A stretch of 64,000 nt of DNA from contig NZ_KL503803.1 in the NCBI RefSeq assembly GCF_000709795.1, forward strand, positions 186,001-250,000, given 5' to 3'. How positions within the stretch are numbered: the stretch's first letter is position 1; every line of letters begins with the position of its first letter. Below are positions 22,094 to 55,166 of this stretch, in pieces. The stretch comes from Bartonella bacilliformis Ver097. GTDB taxonomy: Bacteria; Pseudomonadota; Alphaproteobacteria; Rhizobiales; Rhizobiaceae. The position numbers were made by a program, and so were the translations under genes. The notes beneath the pieces are model-generated. The model searched no databases. It was not told the DNA's origin and worked only from the letters and a program-made list of their open reading frames with translations.

Positions 22094-22495
22094 TCATGAT
22101 TAGAAATGTTGTTGTTTTTTAAGTTTGATATTTCAGTGATCAGAGGATTTTTTTTATTATAAATTATTGAGAGGATTCTCTTGATAATCACATAGCATTG
22201 GGTAAGATCATACACTGTTGTGTCAGTGAGATACTTCTGCTTAGCTTATATTAATAACTTCATTTTGTATTTTATTTAAATGAAGATGTAATATGTATAT
22301 TTTAATGAGTTCAGTTTACTTTCTCTACTGTAAGTGATTATTTAAGTTTGTTTTGCTTTTTGAAAACCATTTATGTACGGCTCTTAAAATACATTATAAT
22401 ATTAATTTGTAATATTAAATACATTATGATATTAATGAGAAAAATGAATAAGGGGATATCAATGTATAATAATTGTTAGCTTGGGAGTCTGGGTT
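22094..22495. other. Upstream region of the intact autotransporter
   Basis: About 400 AT-rich bases with no gene. Two nearly identical AT motifs, each with AATACATTATRATATTAAT, stand in tandem around 22387-22437 and could be promoter or regulator sites. An ATG at 22462 opens only five codons before a stop. Confidence 0.45.
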
Positions 22496-24886
22496 GTGAA
22501 AAATGAATATAAATTGGTTTTTTGGTCGCTAGTAATTAGTAGCTTTCTTACACAAAGTGCAAATGCAGAAGAGCGGAAACAGTTGGGGAGTGTTCTTTTA
22601 GATGGGCGTAGAGTTCCTATTTATGAAGCGCCGGATGTCAAAAAAGTCCTCTCTCCAGGGTCTCGGCGTATGACGAATAATACAGTAGTTGACGGTGGTC
22701 AGATTGAAATTGTTAAAGATGGCGGAACTTCAATGAGTGCTACTGTAATGGTGGGTGGAATACAAGTAGTTACATCTAAAGGGTATGCAATAAACACAAG
22801 GGTTAATGGTGGTCAACAATATATTTTTGAAACAGAAAATTTTGATTCTTCAGAAAGGGAGATAGGATCGAGTCATTCAAGAGCAGAAAATTCAGGGAGA
22901 GGCAGGCCTCCTCGGGATACAAGCGTTACAGGAAGGAAGGCTGCTAGTGCTTATGATGCTATAATTTCCGGTAAAGATGAAACATGGGGAGAGCAGAATA
23001 TATATAGTGGTGGAGAGGCTTGGGCAACACAAGTGAGAAAGGGAGGTGTGCAGAACGTTTTTAGTAATGGTACTGCATTTAAAACTAAGATATTTGATGG
23101 TGGGGAGCAGTACGTTTTGTTGGGAGGTAAGGCTGAGGATGTTACTTTACAGGATGGTGCTAAGCAAGTGGTGTCTGCCGGTGGATCTGTGAAGGATTTA
23201 ATTATCGGTAGAAGAGCACGATCGTGGGTGGAGATTGGTGCAAAGTTAAAAGGGGAAATAGATGTTAAGGAGAAAGGGCATCTTTATTTTTATGATAATA
23301 AAAATAAAAGTCGCGTTATAGGAGAAAGAGTTGAGGTAGTTGGGGGGGAGCTGATGGACTTGTTTTCTATTGATGTGCAAAGAGATGCAAGTCGTTCTCA
23401 GATTAATATTGATGGTTTAATGGGTAATGGAAAAGTCCATTTACCTGTCAGTGGTTATAGAGGGCGTTATCCTCAGCTTCTTATTGGTAAGCTCTCAGGG
23501 AGTTTACATTTCATTTTAAATCTTGGCGCTCTAGAGCATAATGGTAATTTACTTCGTATTCGAGATGACAGTAGTGGTGATCACAAAGTAAGCATTGTCG
23601 ATACAGGTGTTGAATCTGCAAACTTTTCCACATTAACGAGTAGGTTGAATTTGATTACTGATGCTGTTGGAGGAGCTCAATTTTCTTTGGCAAATCTTTC
23701 TGGCGATAGCATTAAAAGTGTCGATTTGGGAGTTTATAAGTATATTCTGAAAAACGATGAAAAGAGTCAAGACACTGATAATGAGAAAGATAAAAGAACT
23801 TGGTATTTGGCTTTAGATACTGAAAGTGGTAAAAATTCCACTTTTTTGCGTAAAAGGCAGAGACGTCGGGTTATTGATCTAGATTATGAAGATGATGGTT
23901 CAAATTATAGTGGGTATACGGCTGATGAGATCTCCCTTCCTTCGTCTTTAGAGAATATGCAAGCTGCTCATTTTTCAACCACTCCATCAACTGATGCCAT
24001 ATTGTCTATGGCAGTATCTTCTGAGCTTATTTTTCATAATGAATTAGAAAATTTGCGTTCCGGTAGAGGCATTGTAGACAGAACCAAGAAAGATACTGCT
24101 TTATGGACTGCTTTTTTCAAAGACAAAGAGCGCCTCTCTACAGGCCATACACATTTTGATCTTGGTCAGACAGGTATTGTGTTGGGTGCTGATTTTTTGA
24201 AAGAACTGACAAATGGAAATCTGTTTATTGGTGGTTTTAGTGGTTATGATCAAGCATGTATCACACATAAAGCTGGTGGTGTGAGTGGTGTAAACACTTA
24301 CAGTTTAGGAATTTATGCAACCTATTTTGATCATAACGGATGGTATTTGGATGGTACTGTAAAATATAATAGTTACCAAAATGACCTTAAGGCTGTTTCT
24401 ACAAATGGCTTAGTGATACAAGGAAATTATCGACAATCAGCTTTAGGAACATCTTTTGAAACCGGTTATCGTTTGGAGACAGGGTACAATAGTTGGATGC
24501 AACCTTATAGCCAATTTGCATGGGTATATGTTGCAGGTAAAGAAATTGAACTTTCGAATGGTATGAGGGGTGATATAGAGGCCTCCACATCGTTCCGAAC
24601 AGAAGTAGGGTTTTCTTTGGGGCATGACTTTAATGTGGGTGATAGCGCTTTTGTAAGTTATCTTACAGCTTCTTGGCTGCGTGAGTATATTGATGATAAT
24701 CATACAACGATCAACAAAAAATATAAATTTATAACTGATTTATCAGGGAATTCTGGGAAATTTGGAGTGGGCTTGAAGACTCTAGTTAATGATCGCTTAA
24801 CGCTTTATGCGGAAGCACATTATCTTAAAGGGAGTAAGAGGAAAGGATCAGTTGATAGTTTAATTGGCGTGCGTTATAGTTTTTAG
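22496..24886 (+). CDS. Autotransporter with AIDA-type passenger repeats
   Basis: Type V secreted outer-membrane protein. A signal peptide ends near ANA|EE (about residue 24). The passenger has AIDA/pertactin-like Gly-rich repeats (VVDGGQ, VMVGGIQ, RVNGGQQ, and later IYSGGEAW, IFDGGEQYV, SAGGSVKDL) in two blocks at about 60-115 and 165-240. A Ser/Arg/Gly-rich linker separates the blocks. A beta-helix-like region follows, then an autotransporter barrel from about residue 535 to the terminal Phe of VRYSF. The GTG at 22496 has GGGAG eight bases upstream; TTG at 22481 is an alternative. Such proteins act as adhesins or host-contact factors in Bartonella; the ligand is unknown. Confidence 0.88.
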   Translation: MKNEYKLVFWSLVISSFLTQSANAEERKQLGSVLLDGRRVPIYEAPDVKKVLSPGSRRMTNNTVVDGGQIEIVKDGGTSMSATVMVGGIQVVTSKGYAINTRVNGGQQYIFETENFDSSEREIGSSHSRAENSGRGRPPRDTSVTGRKAASAYDAIISGKDETWGEQNIYSGGEAWATQVRKGGVQNVFSNGTAFKTKIFDGGEQYVLLGGKAEDVTLQDGAKQVVSAGGSVKDLIIGRRARSWVEIGAKLKGEIDVKEKGHLYFYDNKNKSRVIGERVEVVGGELMDLFSIDVQRDASRSQINIDGLMGNGKVHLPVSGYRGRYPQLLIGKLSGSLHFILNLGALEHNGNLLRIRDDSSGDHKVSIVDTGVESANFSTLTSRLNLITDAVGGAQFSLANLSGDSIKSVDLGVYKYILKNDEKSQDTDNEKDKRTWYLALDTESGKNSTFLRKRQRRRVIDLDYEDDGSNYSGYTADEISLPSSLENMQAAHFSTTPSTDAILSMAVSSELIFHNELENLRSGRGIVDRTKKDTALWTAFFKDKERLSTGHTHFDLGQTGIVLGADFLKELTNGNLFIGGFSGYDQACITHKAGGVSGVNTYSLGIYATYFDHNGWYLDGTVKYNSYQNDLKAVSTNGLVIQGNYRQSALGTSFETGYRLETGYNSWMQPYSQFAWVYVAGKEIELSNGMRGDIEASTSFRTEVGFSLGHDFNVGDSAFVSYLTASWLREYIDDNHTTINKKYKFITDLSGNSGKFGVGLKTLVNDRLTLYAEAHYLKGSKRKGSVDSLIGVRYSF

Positions 24887-29532: not shown

Positions 29533-30399
29533 TTATGCAACTAAGCCTTCACCATTTATCCATTGATAAGTAATGTGTGCACTTTTATCTTGTCTGAGAC
29601 AAGTGATAAGAAAAAGGCTAATTTTTCTCATTTCTTCTTCAAGAAGATAAGGAGGATTAATAAGAATCAAACCGCTTCCATTCATCATGGGCACAATTGA
29701 ATTTTTTCGGATACGCATTTCGAGTTGTAGAATTTTGGGAATATCTGTTTTATGAAGCGTATGAAGAAAATTTTCAATGTCTTTATCGTACTTAACAGGA
29801 TACCATAAGGCGTAAATGCCACCAGGAAAACGCCGATATGCTTTCGCTAATCCTTCAATAAGACGAGAAAATTCACCAGGATTTTCAAAAGAGGGATCAA
29901 CAAGGATGAAGCCGCGTTTTTCTTTTGGAGGTAGATGAGCATTTAAAGATAGCCAACCATTCAGATGCAGCACTTTTGTTTGGTAATCACCAGAAAAATT
30001 ATTGGCTAAAGTTTGGTAATCTTCATCATGTAATTCAATGGCAGTGAGTCGATCTTGTTTACGTAACAATTTGCGAATGAGAATAGGTGATCCAGGATAG
30101 AATGTGATTTTTCTATTATTTTTTTGATTAAATGCATAAATCACATCAAGCCATGGATCAAGGAGTGTTTGTAAATCTTCGGGAATAGGGTTGGATAAAA
30201 TTCGTCCAATACCCTCACGCCATTCTCCTGTTTTTTGCGCTTCTAGGGAAGAGAGATCATACAATCCGATTCCAGCATGCGTGTCTATAACGCGAAAAGC
30301 TTTCTCCTTTCGCTTGAGATATTCTACGATGCGTGTGATAATGACATGTTTGAAAACATCAGCAAAATTGCCAGCATGATAGATATGCCGATAATTCAT
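29533..30399 (-). CDS. rlmJ: 23S rRNA (adenine2030-N6)-methyltransferase RlmJ
   Basis: SAM-dependent methyltransferase acting on 23S rRNA before ribosome assembly. The 288-residue protein opens with the RlmJ signature MNYRHIYHAGNFADVFKH. DTHAGIGLYD is the SAM-binding loop. The catalytic motif reads DPSFENPGEF where relatives have DPPYE; the second Pro and the Tyr are altered to Ser and Phe, a tolerated variation in this family as far as I recall. It stands alone on the minus strand. Confidence 0.92.
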   Translation of the reverse strand: MNYRHIYHAGNFADVFKHVIITRIVEYLKRKEKAFRVIDTHAGIGLYDLSSLEAQKTGEWREGIGRILSNPIPEDLQTLLDPWLDVIYAFNQKNNRKITFYPGSPILIRKLLRKQDRLTAIELHDEDYQTLANNFSGDYQTKVLHLNGWLSLNAHLPPKEKRGFILVDPSFENPGEFSRLIEGLAKAYRRFPGGIYALWYPVKYDKDIENFLHTLHKTDIPKILQLEMRIRKNSIVPMMNGSGLILINPPYLLEEEMRKISLFLITCLRQDKSAHITYQWINGEGLVA

Positions 30400-31076
30400 A
30401 AAATAGACTCTATTCTATACGATTGTTGATTAAATTTCTAAATGTATGATAATAATTCTTACATCAATAAAGCGCTATTAAAAAACAATATATCTTACAA
30501 AAACGAATGTTTTTTTAAGATTGTCGGTCGATATAGTTATATCTATGATTGTGTTATTCCTTACATAAAGCTTTCATGAACAAAGATCCAGAAGGTTGCG
30601 TAGAGATTTTTGATAACAAAAATATTTTTCAGAAAACCAGATTGGTTTATCTAGTATCTAAAAAGAAGCTTATTCACTATTTATTATAAAAATGCAGAAA
30701 ATTACAAAATTTCTGATAAAAATTAGGAATAAGTATGCTGAAATGAGATATTATGTAAAAAATATCGAGTACTATAAAAGTAAATAGCTATTTTACTAAA
30801 TAAAAGTTTTATCAAAAATAAAGAGGATTGTTTCCTTTTAAGGGAAGTCTTCTGTATGATGTATGAAGTTATAATTTTGTGTGTGACACTCAAATATATC
30901 TTTAAAAAATAGTGCGGAATATGAAAATATCTCAACCAATATTGGTAAAACGTATAGCGAGTATTAAAAAATACTCCTTCTACTCAGGCTGGAAAAACAA
31001 CTACTGCTAAAAATATATGTAAAATACTAGAATTAAGCATTAGTTCTTTTGAACAAAAAAGTTGAGCATCAGAAAT
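30400..31076. other. Decayed region upstream of tatB
   Basis: About 680 bases with no intact gene. tatA is expected just upstream of tatB in Rhizobiales, but no clear TatA helix was found. A frame at about 30969-31064 reads STQAGKTTTAKN and ends in a stop; it could be a leftover tail of tatA or another lost gene. A 70-codon minus-strand frame here has no domain and is probably chance. Confidence 0.4.
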
Positions 31077-31341
31077 ATTTTTGATTAGTGGGACAGAGTT
31101 TTAGTTATTTCACTTGTTCTCATCATTGTTGTTGGAGCAAAAAAATACCAAAAATGTTAAGGGTTAAGCAAAGGCAGAAGCATAATATGCGCGTTCAACA
31201 GTTTAATGAATTTCGTCATCAATTTGATGATGCTATAAAACAGGCTGAGCTAGATAATGAAAAAGGGTATTATCGGGTGTCGACCATTTGAATCCTCGTG
31301 AAGAGTTAACAAAATTTTTGATTCAAGTTATGATACAGTGA
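31077..31341 (+). pseudogene. tatB: tatB remnant, frameshifted (Sec-independent protein translocase)
   Basis: TatB is the receptor component of the twin-arginine translocase. Reading across frames, the remnant shows the N-terminal membrane helix (WDRVLVISLVLIIVVGAKK), then after a frame change the amphipathic helix KMLRVKQ … FNEFRHQFDDAIKQAELD typical of alphaproteobacterial TatB. A further frame change leads to HLNPREEL. The start codon is lost (ATT in place of ATG) and a stop interrupts the first residues. Several independent lesions make a sequencing error unlikely. Confidence 0.85.
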
Positions 31342-31538
31342 ATGAAATTTACGATTAGTGTAAATATAATACCATTTTATAAATTGAAAAAGGGAGAAGA
31401 GATTTGTGAATATAGTCAAGACAAATTGAGTGAAAATTTAAACACTATCTGCTGATTATTGTGATCATGGAGTTGTTTGTGTAGTTCGAAATGAGAAAGA
31501 AATGTCGTGAATCCTAAAAAAATGAAGTTGATGCTAAT

Positions 31539-32325
31539 ATGGCACCATTGTTGGAGTATTTGATTGAGCTCCGTTAGCGAATTATTGCAGCTCTGATTGC
31601 ATTTTTTATAGCTTTTATTATTTATTATATGTTTTTTTCAAAGATTATATTTTGAATTTTTTAATATGGTCTTATCAATGGGTGATGAAAATATCAGGTG
31701 GTGATCTTGAAAATGTTCATCTTCAATCAAAGCAAGTATGGGGAATTTTTTTAACAAAAACGAAGCTTGCTGCTTCTGGTATTGTTGTTTTATCTTTTTC
31801 CTATATAGCTTTAGCACCAAGGCGTTATAAAAGTGAGCGTATGGTTTTTTACCATTTTCTTATAGGTGTCCCGTTTTATTTTTGGTTAGAGGAGCATTTA
31901 TTTATGGTCTGTTAGCGCTAATAATGCTTTAGTTTAGTTTTTTTCAACAGTTTTTGCCGGATCTTTATTTAAGGATAGAGTTGATAGCTCGTATTTCAGA
32001 TTATCTGAGTTTTATAGCATGGTTGATCTTGATTTTTGGTTTGATTTCCAACTATCTCTTATTACTAGTTTTTTAATGAAGGTTGGATTGTTAACATCTC
32101 ATATGTTAATATCCATTTGAAAGTGAGTTATTCTGATTTCCTTTGTTATTGCGGCTATGGTGACGCCATCAGGTTTTTTTTACTATGTTTGCAGTAGTGC
32201 TACCAACCGTAGTTCTCTATGAAGTGTCGATTTTAATAGCTTACTGGATGGAAAAGAAAGAGAAATCATTCTTAATGAAAGTTTATATTTTTATGATACG
32301 AGGCTCATGGAAACGATACAAATGA
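31539..32325 (+). pseudogene. tatC: tatC remnant, multiply frameshifted
   Basis: TatC is the core membrane subunit of the twin-arginine translocase. From the ATG at 31539 the frame reads MAPLLEYLIELR, then a stop. The family sequence continues in shifting frames: FFIAFIIYYMFF, LIWSYQWVMKISGGDLENV, KQVWGIFLTKTKLAASG, RRYKSERMVFYHFLIGVPF, LIARISDYLSFIAWLILIFG, AMVTPSGFF, VVLPTVVLYEVSIL. It ends at a TGA ten bases before serS. I count at least three in-frame stops and three frameshifts. The order of the TatC landmarks is preserved, so this is decay in place. Confidence 0.88.
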
Positions 32326-32334
32326 GGAATTTTT

Positions 32335-33612
32335 ATGCTTGACATTAAATGGATACGTGAAAATCCTGAAAAATTAGATGCAGCACTAGCAAGTAGAGGC
32401 ATTGAGCCACATGCTGAACGGTTAATAGCACTTGATCTTGAACGTCGATCACATGTTGCCAAAGTGCAATGTGCAAAAGAGCGCCGCAATTCAGCTTCTA
32501 AAGAAATAGGCCAAGCTTTGGCTGCAGGTGATCAAAAAATTGTTGAGCGTATTAAAGCTGAGGTTGAGGAGATTAAAACTTTTCTTTCTTCTGCCGCAAT
32601 AAAAGAAAAGCAGTTAACCGAGAGTCTTGAAAAGATACTATCAGCTATACCAAATATTCCGTTAGATTCTGTTCCAAAGGGTGAAAATGAAGAGGCCAAT
32701 GTTGTTATTCGACATTTTGGTACACCCCCGATATTTAATTTTATACCAAAAGAACATTTTGATCTTGGTCAAAATCTTAAGCAGATGGATTTCGAGCGAG
32801 CAAGTCGTTTATCGGGTGCGCGTTTTACTGTACTTTCAGGGGCGTTAGCTCGGCTTGAGCGTGCATTAGGTCAATTTATGCTTGATGTACATGTTAATGA
32901 GCATGGTTATGAAGAAATTTCTCTTCCTCTTCTTGTGCGTGATGAGATTGTTTATGGAGCAGCGCAACTGCCGAAATTTGCTGATGATCTTTTTCGAATT
33001 ACAGATGGTCGGTGGCTTATTTCTACAGCAGAAGTGCCATTAGTCAATTTGGTAAATGGTGAAGTTCTTAATGAATCAGATTTACCATTGCGATTTTCCT
33101 CTCTTACCCCTTGTTTTCGTTCAGAAGCAGGAGCAGCCGGTCGTGATACACGTGGTATGTTACGTCAACACCAGTTTTGGAAGGTAGAGATGGTGTCGAT
33201 TACCACTGAAGAACAGTCCTTAATTGAACTGGAACGTATGACAGAGTGTGCAGAAGATATATTGAAGCGGCTTGGGTTACCTTTTCGTACTGTGATTCTT
33301 TCTACTGGTGATATGGGGTTTGCTTCATGCAAAACCTATGACATTGAGGTTTGGCTTCCAGGTCAAGGGTGTTACCGTGAAATTTCAAGTTGTTCAGTTT
33401 GTGGTGATTTTCAAGGACGGCGTATGAATGCTCGATATCGTAAAGACAGAGATAAAACATTGCATTTTGTGCATAGTTTGAATGGTTCAGGTACCGCTAT
33501 TGGTCGCTGTCTTATCGCTATTCTTGAAAATTATCAGCAAGCTGATGGATCGATTATTATTCCAGATGCTTTGCAACCTTATATGAAGGGAATAAATTGT
33601 ATCACTGCCTAA
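32335..33612 (+). CDS. serS: Seryl-tRNA synthetase
   Basis: Class II synthetase charging tRNA-Ser. The N-terminal coiled-coil arm (about residues 25-105) is followed by the catalytic domain with motif 2 ([20 protein letters not shown]) and motif 3 ([16 protein letters not shown]). Length 425 is normal. GAGG lies before the ATG at 32335. It sits ten bases after the tatC remnant, where an intact tatABC-serS order is usual, so serS may rely on the old tat promoter or a new one. Confidence 0.97.
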
Positions 33613-53972: not shown

Positions 53973-55166
53973 TTATTTTGGAATTTCTCCTGGATAAATA
54001 ACAGTAGCAGTTGCAAGAGCAGCAATACCTTCCTCACGACCAATAAATCCCAATTTTTCGTTGGTTGTCGCCTTAATGGAAATACGGTCAGTTGAAATTT
54101 TAAGTATCTTCATAAGATTTTCTGTCATGATGTGACGATAGGGACCAATTTTGGGTTTTTCAGCAATGAGTGTGATATCTACATTGGCAATACGACCTTC
54201 TGCGTTTTTAATAATTTCAATAGCGTGGTGCAGGAAAATTTCTGACGATGCATTTTTCCATTGCGGATCAGAAGGAGGAAAATGAGTGCCGATATCTCCT
54301 GCTCCTTGGGTAGAGAGAAGAGCATCCGTTAGGGCATGAAGCGCAACATCAGCATCTGAATGTCCGTTTAATTTCTTTTCAAAAGGGATTTTGATGCCAC
54401 ATAAAGTGATATAATGGCCGTCTTCAAAAGAATGAACATCATAACCATTTCCAGTACGAATATCAGGAAATATTTGCGTGCCTTTGAGGAGGTATGAGTG
54501 TGCGGTTTCAAGATCTTCTGGCCATGTAATTTTTATATTGTTCGGATCTCCAGGGATGGTGCGTATAGGGATACCAAACCATTCAGCGATTGCTGAATCA
54601 TCAGTAAAGTCTTGTTTATGAGATTGCATCGCTTTTTCATGGGCAGCTAAGATAAGTTTAAATGGAAAGCACTGAGGAGTCTGTGCTCTATAGAGATTAG
54701 TGCGTGGGATTGTTTCTAAAACGTGATGTGTGTTGCTGACATATTTAAGGGTATCAGAAACAGAGAGAACAGGGAGAACGCCTTCTTTGTGGTTGATGGA
54801 GGTATGGATTTGTTCAAGAAGTGCATTTCCAATAAAGGGGCGTGCACCATCATGAATATGGACATAGTCTGGCTTAACATTTTTGAGTGCACGAAGTCCT
54901 TGTAAAGTAGATATTTGACGTGTCTCACCTCCTTCAATAATTGTGAGGTGCTCTTTAAGATCAAGTATAGCGTTTGCACATATTTGGTGGTCATCTGGGT
55001 GGATGACTAAAATGATATTTGTGATAGCTGGATGTTGCAAAAAACAACGTATAGTATGACAAATAACTGGCTCTCGTCCTAAAAGTTGGTATTGTTTTGG
55101 ACCATTTTGGAGAAAGCCTGCTCTGCTTCCACGTCCGGCGGCTAATATGATCGCTGCAATAGAAAT
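53973..55166 (-). CDS. ispDF: Bifunctional IspD/IspF, with non-canonical start
   Basis: Two steps of the MEP isoprenoid pathway: cytidylyltransferase (IspD) and cyclodiphosphate synthase (IspF). The IspD nucleotide motif [15 protein letters not shown] is encoded at 55163-55119, upstream of the first in-frame TTG (55040), and without it the enzyme should be inactive. No ATG, GTG or TTG precedes it in frame. An ATT at 55166 sits seven bases after AGGAG and is the best start. An ATG at 55191 is in another frame. The IspF half, from about residue 241, has [12 protein letters not shown] and [17 protein letters not shown] and ends with [10 protein letters not shown]. Both domains look intact. Confidence 0.88.

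Follow-up and report, generated by a model that had tools for sequence, protein, structure and literature searches.

A tatABC operon was described for the Rhizobiales in a survey of 53 alphaproteobacterial genomes, in which, according to the accessible text, the Rieske protein was the only predicted cargo of the twin-arginine translocase (Tat) common to Anaplasmataceae and Brucellaceae, and COG1376 was a predicted Tat cargo in Brucellaceae (PMC3305326). The Rieske protein is reported to be Tat-dependent in Mesorhizobium loti, where it is not the sole reason for the need of Tat (PMC6256036), and also in Shewanella, where tat defects were tied to Rieske (PMC3623810; both as given in the available sections). 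In the part of PMC12911857 that could be consulted, Tat is described as essential in Caulobacter, as needed by S. meliloti and as not needed by A. tumefaciens; PBP2 is proposed there as a vital Tat cargo in Caulobacter, and the Rhizobiales are without PBP2. In mitochondria TatC has been lost at least 21 times with no tie to the twin arginine (RR) of the Rieske protein, at least in the sections available; the same article cites an earlier claim that the RR of Rieske goes with Tat and reports otherwise (Petru et al. 2018, PMC6251230). In a literature search covering titles and abstract openings, with most subscription journals outside its range, we found no report of Tat loss in Bartonella.

Here we analysed a window of 64,000 nucleotides from Bartonella bacilliformis Ver097. 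Its genome (G000) comprises 1,394,706 bases in 6 contigs, with a completeness of 100 and a contamination of 0.61. The original prediction held that tatB and tatC were decaying in place between rlmJ and serS. Both neighbours are intact: rlmJ, named after that prediction, is a 288-aa open frame at 29533..30399 on the reverse strand, and serS, which was found in 71 of 71 genomes of the genus, is a 425-aa open frame at 32335..33612 on the forward strand. The intact TatA (104 aa), TatB (147 aa) and TatC (260 aa) of G027, a genome of the same genus, were aligned to the DNA between them by a frame-aware protein-to-DNA script in which frame changes were permitted. Of tatA, which had not been recognised before, a C-terminal remnant is left at 30930..31014 (forward strand), covering only residues 71-99 with 17 of 29 identical to G027 TatA and one frame change. 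The tatB pseudogene follows at 31075..31501 on the same strand and covers residues 2-144 (70/143 identical) with eight frame changes; it is interrupted by stops at 31183 and 31356, one of which falls in an inserted codon. The start codon of tatB is missing, as had been proposed, and the match begins at residue 2. The tatC pseudogene at 31507..32268, also on the forward strand, covers residues 1-259 (175/253 identical) and contains six frame changes, four stops (31575, 31930, 32118 and 32124) and a six-residue deletion. Together tatB and tatC carry 14 frame changes and six stops, so the expected decay was confirmed and the earlier figure, four or more frame changes with several stops, was correct but too low; with tatA included there are 15 frame changes within about 1.3 kb. 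The order tatA-tatB-tatC-serS is preserved in spite of these lesions. The alignment scores of tatA, tatB and tatC were 77, 251 and 757, compared to maxima of 41, 47 and 63 in 20 shuffles of the region, and a chance likeness to tat genes was thereby ruled out.

Profile searches of the whole genome found no further TatC at E<=0.001 and no TatA/B/E at E<=0.1; no second tat locus was thus found in G000, and the proposed loss of the whole Tat route could be upheld. None of the open frames that a functional TatABC requires is present, as all three genes are broken or fragmentary. We concluded that the tatABC genes of G000 are pseudogenes and remnants. The gene loss itself is true and well supported; its interest lies in a repeated, ordered pattern across the genus and in a natural change in the signal of a second cargo, both described below.

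The closest relative among the genomes compared is G074, with a serS 95% identical to that of G000. The tatC genes of both genomes share a pair of neighbouring in-frame stops and a deletion of 16 bases, lesions that are absent from the tatC of G027 and of G032, the sister of the G000 and G074 pair (support 100), which has kept tatC and has no bc1. In G074, tatA and tatB have since gone as well, along with the beginning of tatC. Between G000 and G074 the tatC dN was 0.149 and the dS 0.206, giving a dN/dS of 0.72 against about 0.16 for serS; purifying selection on tatC was thus not found for this pair. Because the lesions are common to both genomes and dN/dS is relaxed compared to serS, tatC was dead before G000 and G074 separated. 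The loss had been called recent, the remnants being still readable, which holds in a relative sense only; it is older than this split. Poor reads typically show up as frame changes, and the tat genes could in principle be intact in the organism and broken only by sequencing or assembly error. With 15 frame changes and six stops in about 1.3 kb between open neighbours, the relaxed dN/dS and the lesions shared with G074, we ruled out read errors as the source and give this explanation practically no weight. It is scarcely more credible that a reduced or divergent Tat system persists unrecognised by the family models. TatA-type proteins are short and easily missed, and even the decayed copy in the window went unreported in the TatC search of G000; against this, the same model found tatC intact in 59 and broken in 8 of the 71 genomes and no intact TatC in G000, where TatA/B/E was also absent at the permissive threshold of the profile search.

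Seventy-one Bartonella genomes were searched for tatC and for the Rieske gene. tatC was intact in 59 of them and damaged or absent in 12 (G000, G004, G021, G023, G024, G029, G030, G074, G080, G084, G085 and G088). The Tat loss that had been ascribed to the lineage of the window is therefore present there, but is not peculiar to it. The available main text of the survey of 53 genomes stresses the preservation of Tat and contains no mention of Bartonella (PMC3305326), whereas Bartonella has lost Tat repeatedly. Tat was scored as intact on tatC in all 71 genomes, and tatA and tatB were checked in 49 of the tatC-bearing ones. One frame change in one tat gene, relative to G027, was seen in ten of these 49, all ten of which were scored as intact; nine of the ten frame changes are confined to the C-terminal end (from residue 88 in tatA, 106 in tatB and 255 in tatC) and the tenth, in G019, lies at tatB residue 74.

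The decay was found at different stages. G023 is lightly damaged in all three tat genes, G000 and the lineage of G021, G084, G088 and G024 are more heavily damaged, and little more than a faint trace of tatC is left in either G029 or G030 (scores of 70 and 105; the highest shuffle score was 63). rlmJ and serS lie 3633 apart in G027, 1936 in G000, 1011 in G074, 919 in G004 and 487 in G030, although Tat-bearing genomes differ in this spacing too (2183 in G012). The dN/dS of tatC was 0.00-0.36 in the 14 pairs that have Rieske as well as Tat. Eight pairs with at least one Rieske-less, Tat-bearing genome, which use nine of the ten such genomes (G032 was left out), gave 0.13-0.27 in seven cases and 0.51 in one pair with a low dS. 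In eight pairs with at least one Tat-less genome the values were 0.34-1.46, except for 0.145 in G080.

The gene of the Rieske protein, the classic cargo of Tat, was intact in 50 of the 71 genomes. It was absent in 13 (G000, G004, G014, G021, G024, G029, G030, G032, G068, G074, G084, G087 and G088) and broken in eight (G005, G015, G023, G071, G075, G081, G083 and G085). Cytochrome c1 tracks Rieske with three departures: c1 is open in G015; in G019, where Rieske is open, the c1 frame is short (205 aa); and the search missed c1 in G017, a fragmented genome. Tat was damaged in 11 of the 21 Rieske-less genomes and in 1 of the 50 Rieske-bearing ones (Fisher p=1.4e-6, kinship ignored). Eleven of the 12 Tat-damaged genomes are thus without an intact Rieske, the exception being G080, and ten genomes without Rieske retain tatC. 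In G000 the operon of Rieske, cytochrome b and c1 is deleted, leaving an interval of 469 bases (L314 6657-7126, C4) between a PRC-barrel-like and a trmL-like gene, both named by eye, where G027 has bc1. The operon persists in pieces in G023, G075, G081, G071, G005, G083 and G015; the record of G015 and one other record were covered in part. The N-terminal region of Rieske contains RRDFLFL in 30 of 30 intact loci examined, and the Rieske of G027 matches PF10399, the Rieske Tat-signal model, and is the sole match of the general Tat-signal model in that genome. As a separate observation, a predicted ATPase-like gene (by eye) beside prsA lies in pieces in several Rieske-less genomes (L201 1354-2850; L205, L208, L209, L204 and L207), and no counterpart was found at this place in G000, G074 and G004.

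The losses were placed, by parsimony without regain, on a tree of 61 genomes for which four deep lineages supplied the root; the ten of the 71 genomes left out (G007, G008, G011, G013, G017, G020, G064, G079, G082 and G089) all have Rieske and tatC intact. Eight Rieske losses and six Tat losses were obtained, or seven Tat losses when G080 is counted. All six Tat losses fall on Rieske-less branches (p=0.003), or six of seven with G080 (p=0.015), where Rieske-less branches make up 0.385 of the tree length and whole loss branches were counted as Rieske-less. The deep nodes are weak with both FastTree and IQ-TREE (UFBoot 41-50), and the safe minimum is therefore four Tat losses besides G080: one in G000 and G074, one in G023, the sister of which (G012) keeps tatC, one in G085, and one or more in the other lineages. 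The order cannot be read in G023, in G085 or in G029 with G030, three lineages in which a single branch carries both losses. An order with the cargo lost before the exporter is seen in the ten Rieske-less genomes that keep tatC, which include G032. The best reading is that bc1 was lost and then Tat was lost, separately in several Bartonella lineages.

Next to bc1 lies a gene for an L,D-transpeptidase with a YkuD domain and a lipoprotein-like signal of the form SRRAFLIAAPLALVGC, which was present in 30 of 30 genomes searched. We take COG1376 to be the L,D-transpeptidase family. To our knowledge, this protein carries no cofactor of the Rieske kind. Its signal was read in 70 of the 71 genomes; G017 was left out as its contig was too short. 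Where Rieske is present and Tat intact, the signal has RR and proline in 24 genomes and no RR in another 24, of which 20 are also without the proline. Where Rieske is absent and Tat intact, RR and proline are present in 10 of 10. Where both Rieske and Tat are lost, RR and proline remain in two (G000 and G074), RR without proline in three, and six have no RR. RR or the signal proline was thus lost in 9 of 11 genomes without Rieske and Tat compared to 0 of 10 without Rieske only, counts that are not independent since the genomes are related. The transpeptidase of G080 has neither RR nor proline. As 25 of the 49 Rieske-bearing genomes read have no RR, the transpeptidase can do without a canonical Tat signal. 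In the group of G085 the signal changed before Tat was lost, because its relatives (G022, G001, G010, G026 and others) have lost RR while Tat is intact. RR-less hydrophobic signals can still use Tat in E. coli, as stated in the available text of PMC5539426, and for that reason the loss of RR is no proof of Sec export.

The original prediction also stated that cofactor-containing periplasmic proteins of this lineage must use Sec or have gone. This applies to Rieske, which is gone together with bc1; the other RR protein, the L,D-transpeptidase, was kept in G000 and presumably goes by Sec. The Tat-signal model TIGR01409, applied at E<=1 to seven genomes, found no Tat signal in G000, G074, G032, G087 and G014, found Rieske in G027, and found three loci in G003, which by eye are Rieske, a transpeptidase-like and a formate-dehydrogenase-like protein. 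This model under-reports, because it missed the RR transpeptidase of G027; the transpeptidase of G000 likewise retains its RR signal without a match to the model. Our list of Tat cargo covers this model in the seven genomes and one neighbouring gene, and is not exhaustive. The formate-dehydrogenase-like protein (L325) bears a strong RR signal, and since G003, which possesses a bd oxidase, is a deep lineage, early Bartonella probably had more Tat cargo. A shift of the transpeptidase signal from Tat-type to Sec-type, with RR lost and the proline replaced, was observed in many Bartonella (L215-L244, L265-L304), including a large clade in which Tat is still intact.

The terminal oxidases were surveyed in 18 genomes, among them the bc1-bearing G012, G022, G027, G080 and G003. 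One full-length COX1-type oxidase was found in 17 of the 18, while G003 has two; in G029 there was, beyond its own COX1-type oxidase, only one fragment below the cut-off. In all 18 genomes CyoB, the bo3 ubiquinol oxidase, was the best model for the main oxidase; the score exceeded the curated cut-off in 17, and G003 reached 1018 bits against 1020. A bd oxidase was not found in 17 of the 18 genomes and was found in G003 only, so that a takeover by such an oxidase was rejected for those 17; in agreement with this, according to the accessible text of PMC5322542, only B. tamiae has a bd oxidase. G000 has a bo3-type quinol oxidase, and no further haem-copper oxidase and no bd oxidase were found in it. 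As the only terminal oxidase found in 17 of the 18 genomes is a bo3 quinol oxidase, bc1 looks expendable. Without a recognised cytochrome c oxidase, bc1 would be a side road, and quinol would feed oxygen directly.

We consider it quite probable that the loss of the cargo, Rieske with bc1, made Tat useless and that Tat then decayed, repeatedly. In such a succession quinol would pass electrons directly to the bo3 oxidase in oxygen respiration, bc1 would become expendable, and with Rieske gone Tat would be left with little cargo. The L,D-transpeptidase lipoprotein evidently copes without a canonical Tat signal, as its RR is already gone in many Tat-bearing species. Because no client would then strictly need Tat, tatABC would be freed of selection and collect frame changes, stops and ongoing deletions, and the same succession of bc1 loss and Tat loss would have run separately in several lineages of the genus. 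Several points, the weak deep nodes and the limited list of cargo among them, speak against cargo loss as the cause. The tatC of G080 was hit while Rieske and bc1 are intact, the TatB of G019 is shortened while its Rieske and tatC are open, and G000 and G074 still have the RR and proline in their transpeptidase, so that its re-routing is not visible in the lineage of the window. A more specific form, that Tat in most Bartonella is held by only two clients, Rieske and the L,D-transpeptidase, each of which can be shed, the translocase dying when both are shed, is possible, and we put it forward tentatively. Rieske would be shed via bc1 loss and the transpeptidase via the change from a Tat-type to a Sec-type signal. 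All 59 genomes with an intact tatC have either an intact Rieske (49) or an RR transpeptidase (10), and all six genomes without both have lost Tat.

General genome shrinkage could also have removed both systems, Tat and bc1 drifting away independently of one another in pathogens with small populations. Nineteen of the 21 Rieske-less genomes do not exceed 1.8 Mb, and the Rieske-bearing ones all reach at least 1.7 Mb; shrinkage is thus common to both losses, and its effect cannot be taken out completely by correlation. The losses are one-sided, however, with ten genomes that lost Rieske and kept tatC and G080 as the only clear reverse case. Moreover, size does not set apart the Rieske-less genomes by the fate of Tat: in rounded sizes the average is about 1.65 Mb with Tat lost (n=11) and about 1.61 Mb with Tat kept (n=10). 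Tat was lost in G023 (2.1 Mb) and G085 (1.9 Mb) and tatC was kept in four genomes of 1.5 Mb (G014, G015, G032 and G068). We therefore regard shrinkage as an unlikely explanation by itself. The opposite order, in which Tat failed first, Rieske was not assembled and bc1 decayed later, would fit the three lineages with both losses on one branch, and two individual genomes. In G080 a single frame change lies within an A/T-rich run of tatC, with bc1 and Rieske intact; since tatA and tatB of this genome are open and its tatC is constrained (dN/dS 0.145 against G026), a read error or a lesion of very recent origin is suspected. In G019 Rieske and tatC are open (tatC dN/dS 0.36 against G002) and a frame change shortens TatB to 75 of its 147 residues (L149); this may be the earliest stage or a differently ordered case, or may reflect errors in a 390-contig assembly. 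Against the opposite order stand the ten Rieske-less genomes with an open tatC, which is constrained in most pairs tested, and among them G032, without bc1 and with tatC next to the pair that lost both. We hold this order to be very improbable, and return to cargo loss as the preferred explanation.

Bartonella forms a natural series: genomes with both systems present, genomes with the cargo lost and Tat kept, genomes with both lost and light lesions, and genomes with both nearly deleted. In Shewanella and Mesorhizobium, as in Bartonella, the need for Tat appears to be largely the need for a working Rieske protein; there Tat was removed by experiment with Rieske present, whereas in Bartonella first Rieske and then Tat were removed naturally (PMC3623810, PMC6256036, in the parts at hand). 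Tat loss inside one bacterial genus also parallels mitochondrial history: in both there is repeated Tat loss among alphaproteobacterial descendants, with Rieske discussed as putative cargo. Mitochondria keep Rieske and move the protein by other means (Bcs1 in yeast), whereas Bartonella loses Rieske itself, and, unlike in the mitochondrial cases described in the accessible text, the decay in Bartonella is caught at several stages (PMC6251230). The question of what retains Tat thus becomes a testable prediction about two proteins. If these two clients indeed hold Tat, the fate of a whole export machine would be predictable from two short sequences.

Two further features of the window were observed. 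At 53973-55100 on the reverse strand an IspDF-like frame continues beyond the TTG listed as its start, and the upstream part looks by eye like a typical IspD start region; no ATG, GTG or TTG is listed ahead of that TTG, and a rarer start codon may serve. At 22481-24886 lies a frame of 801 aa that is autotransporter-like by eye.
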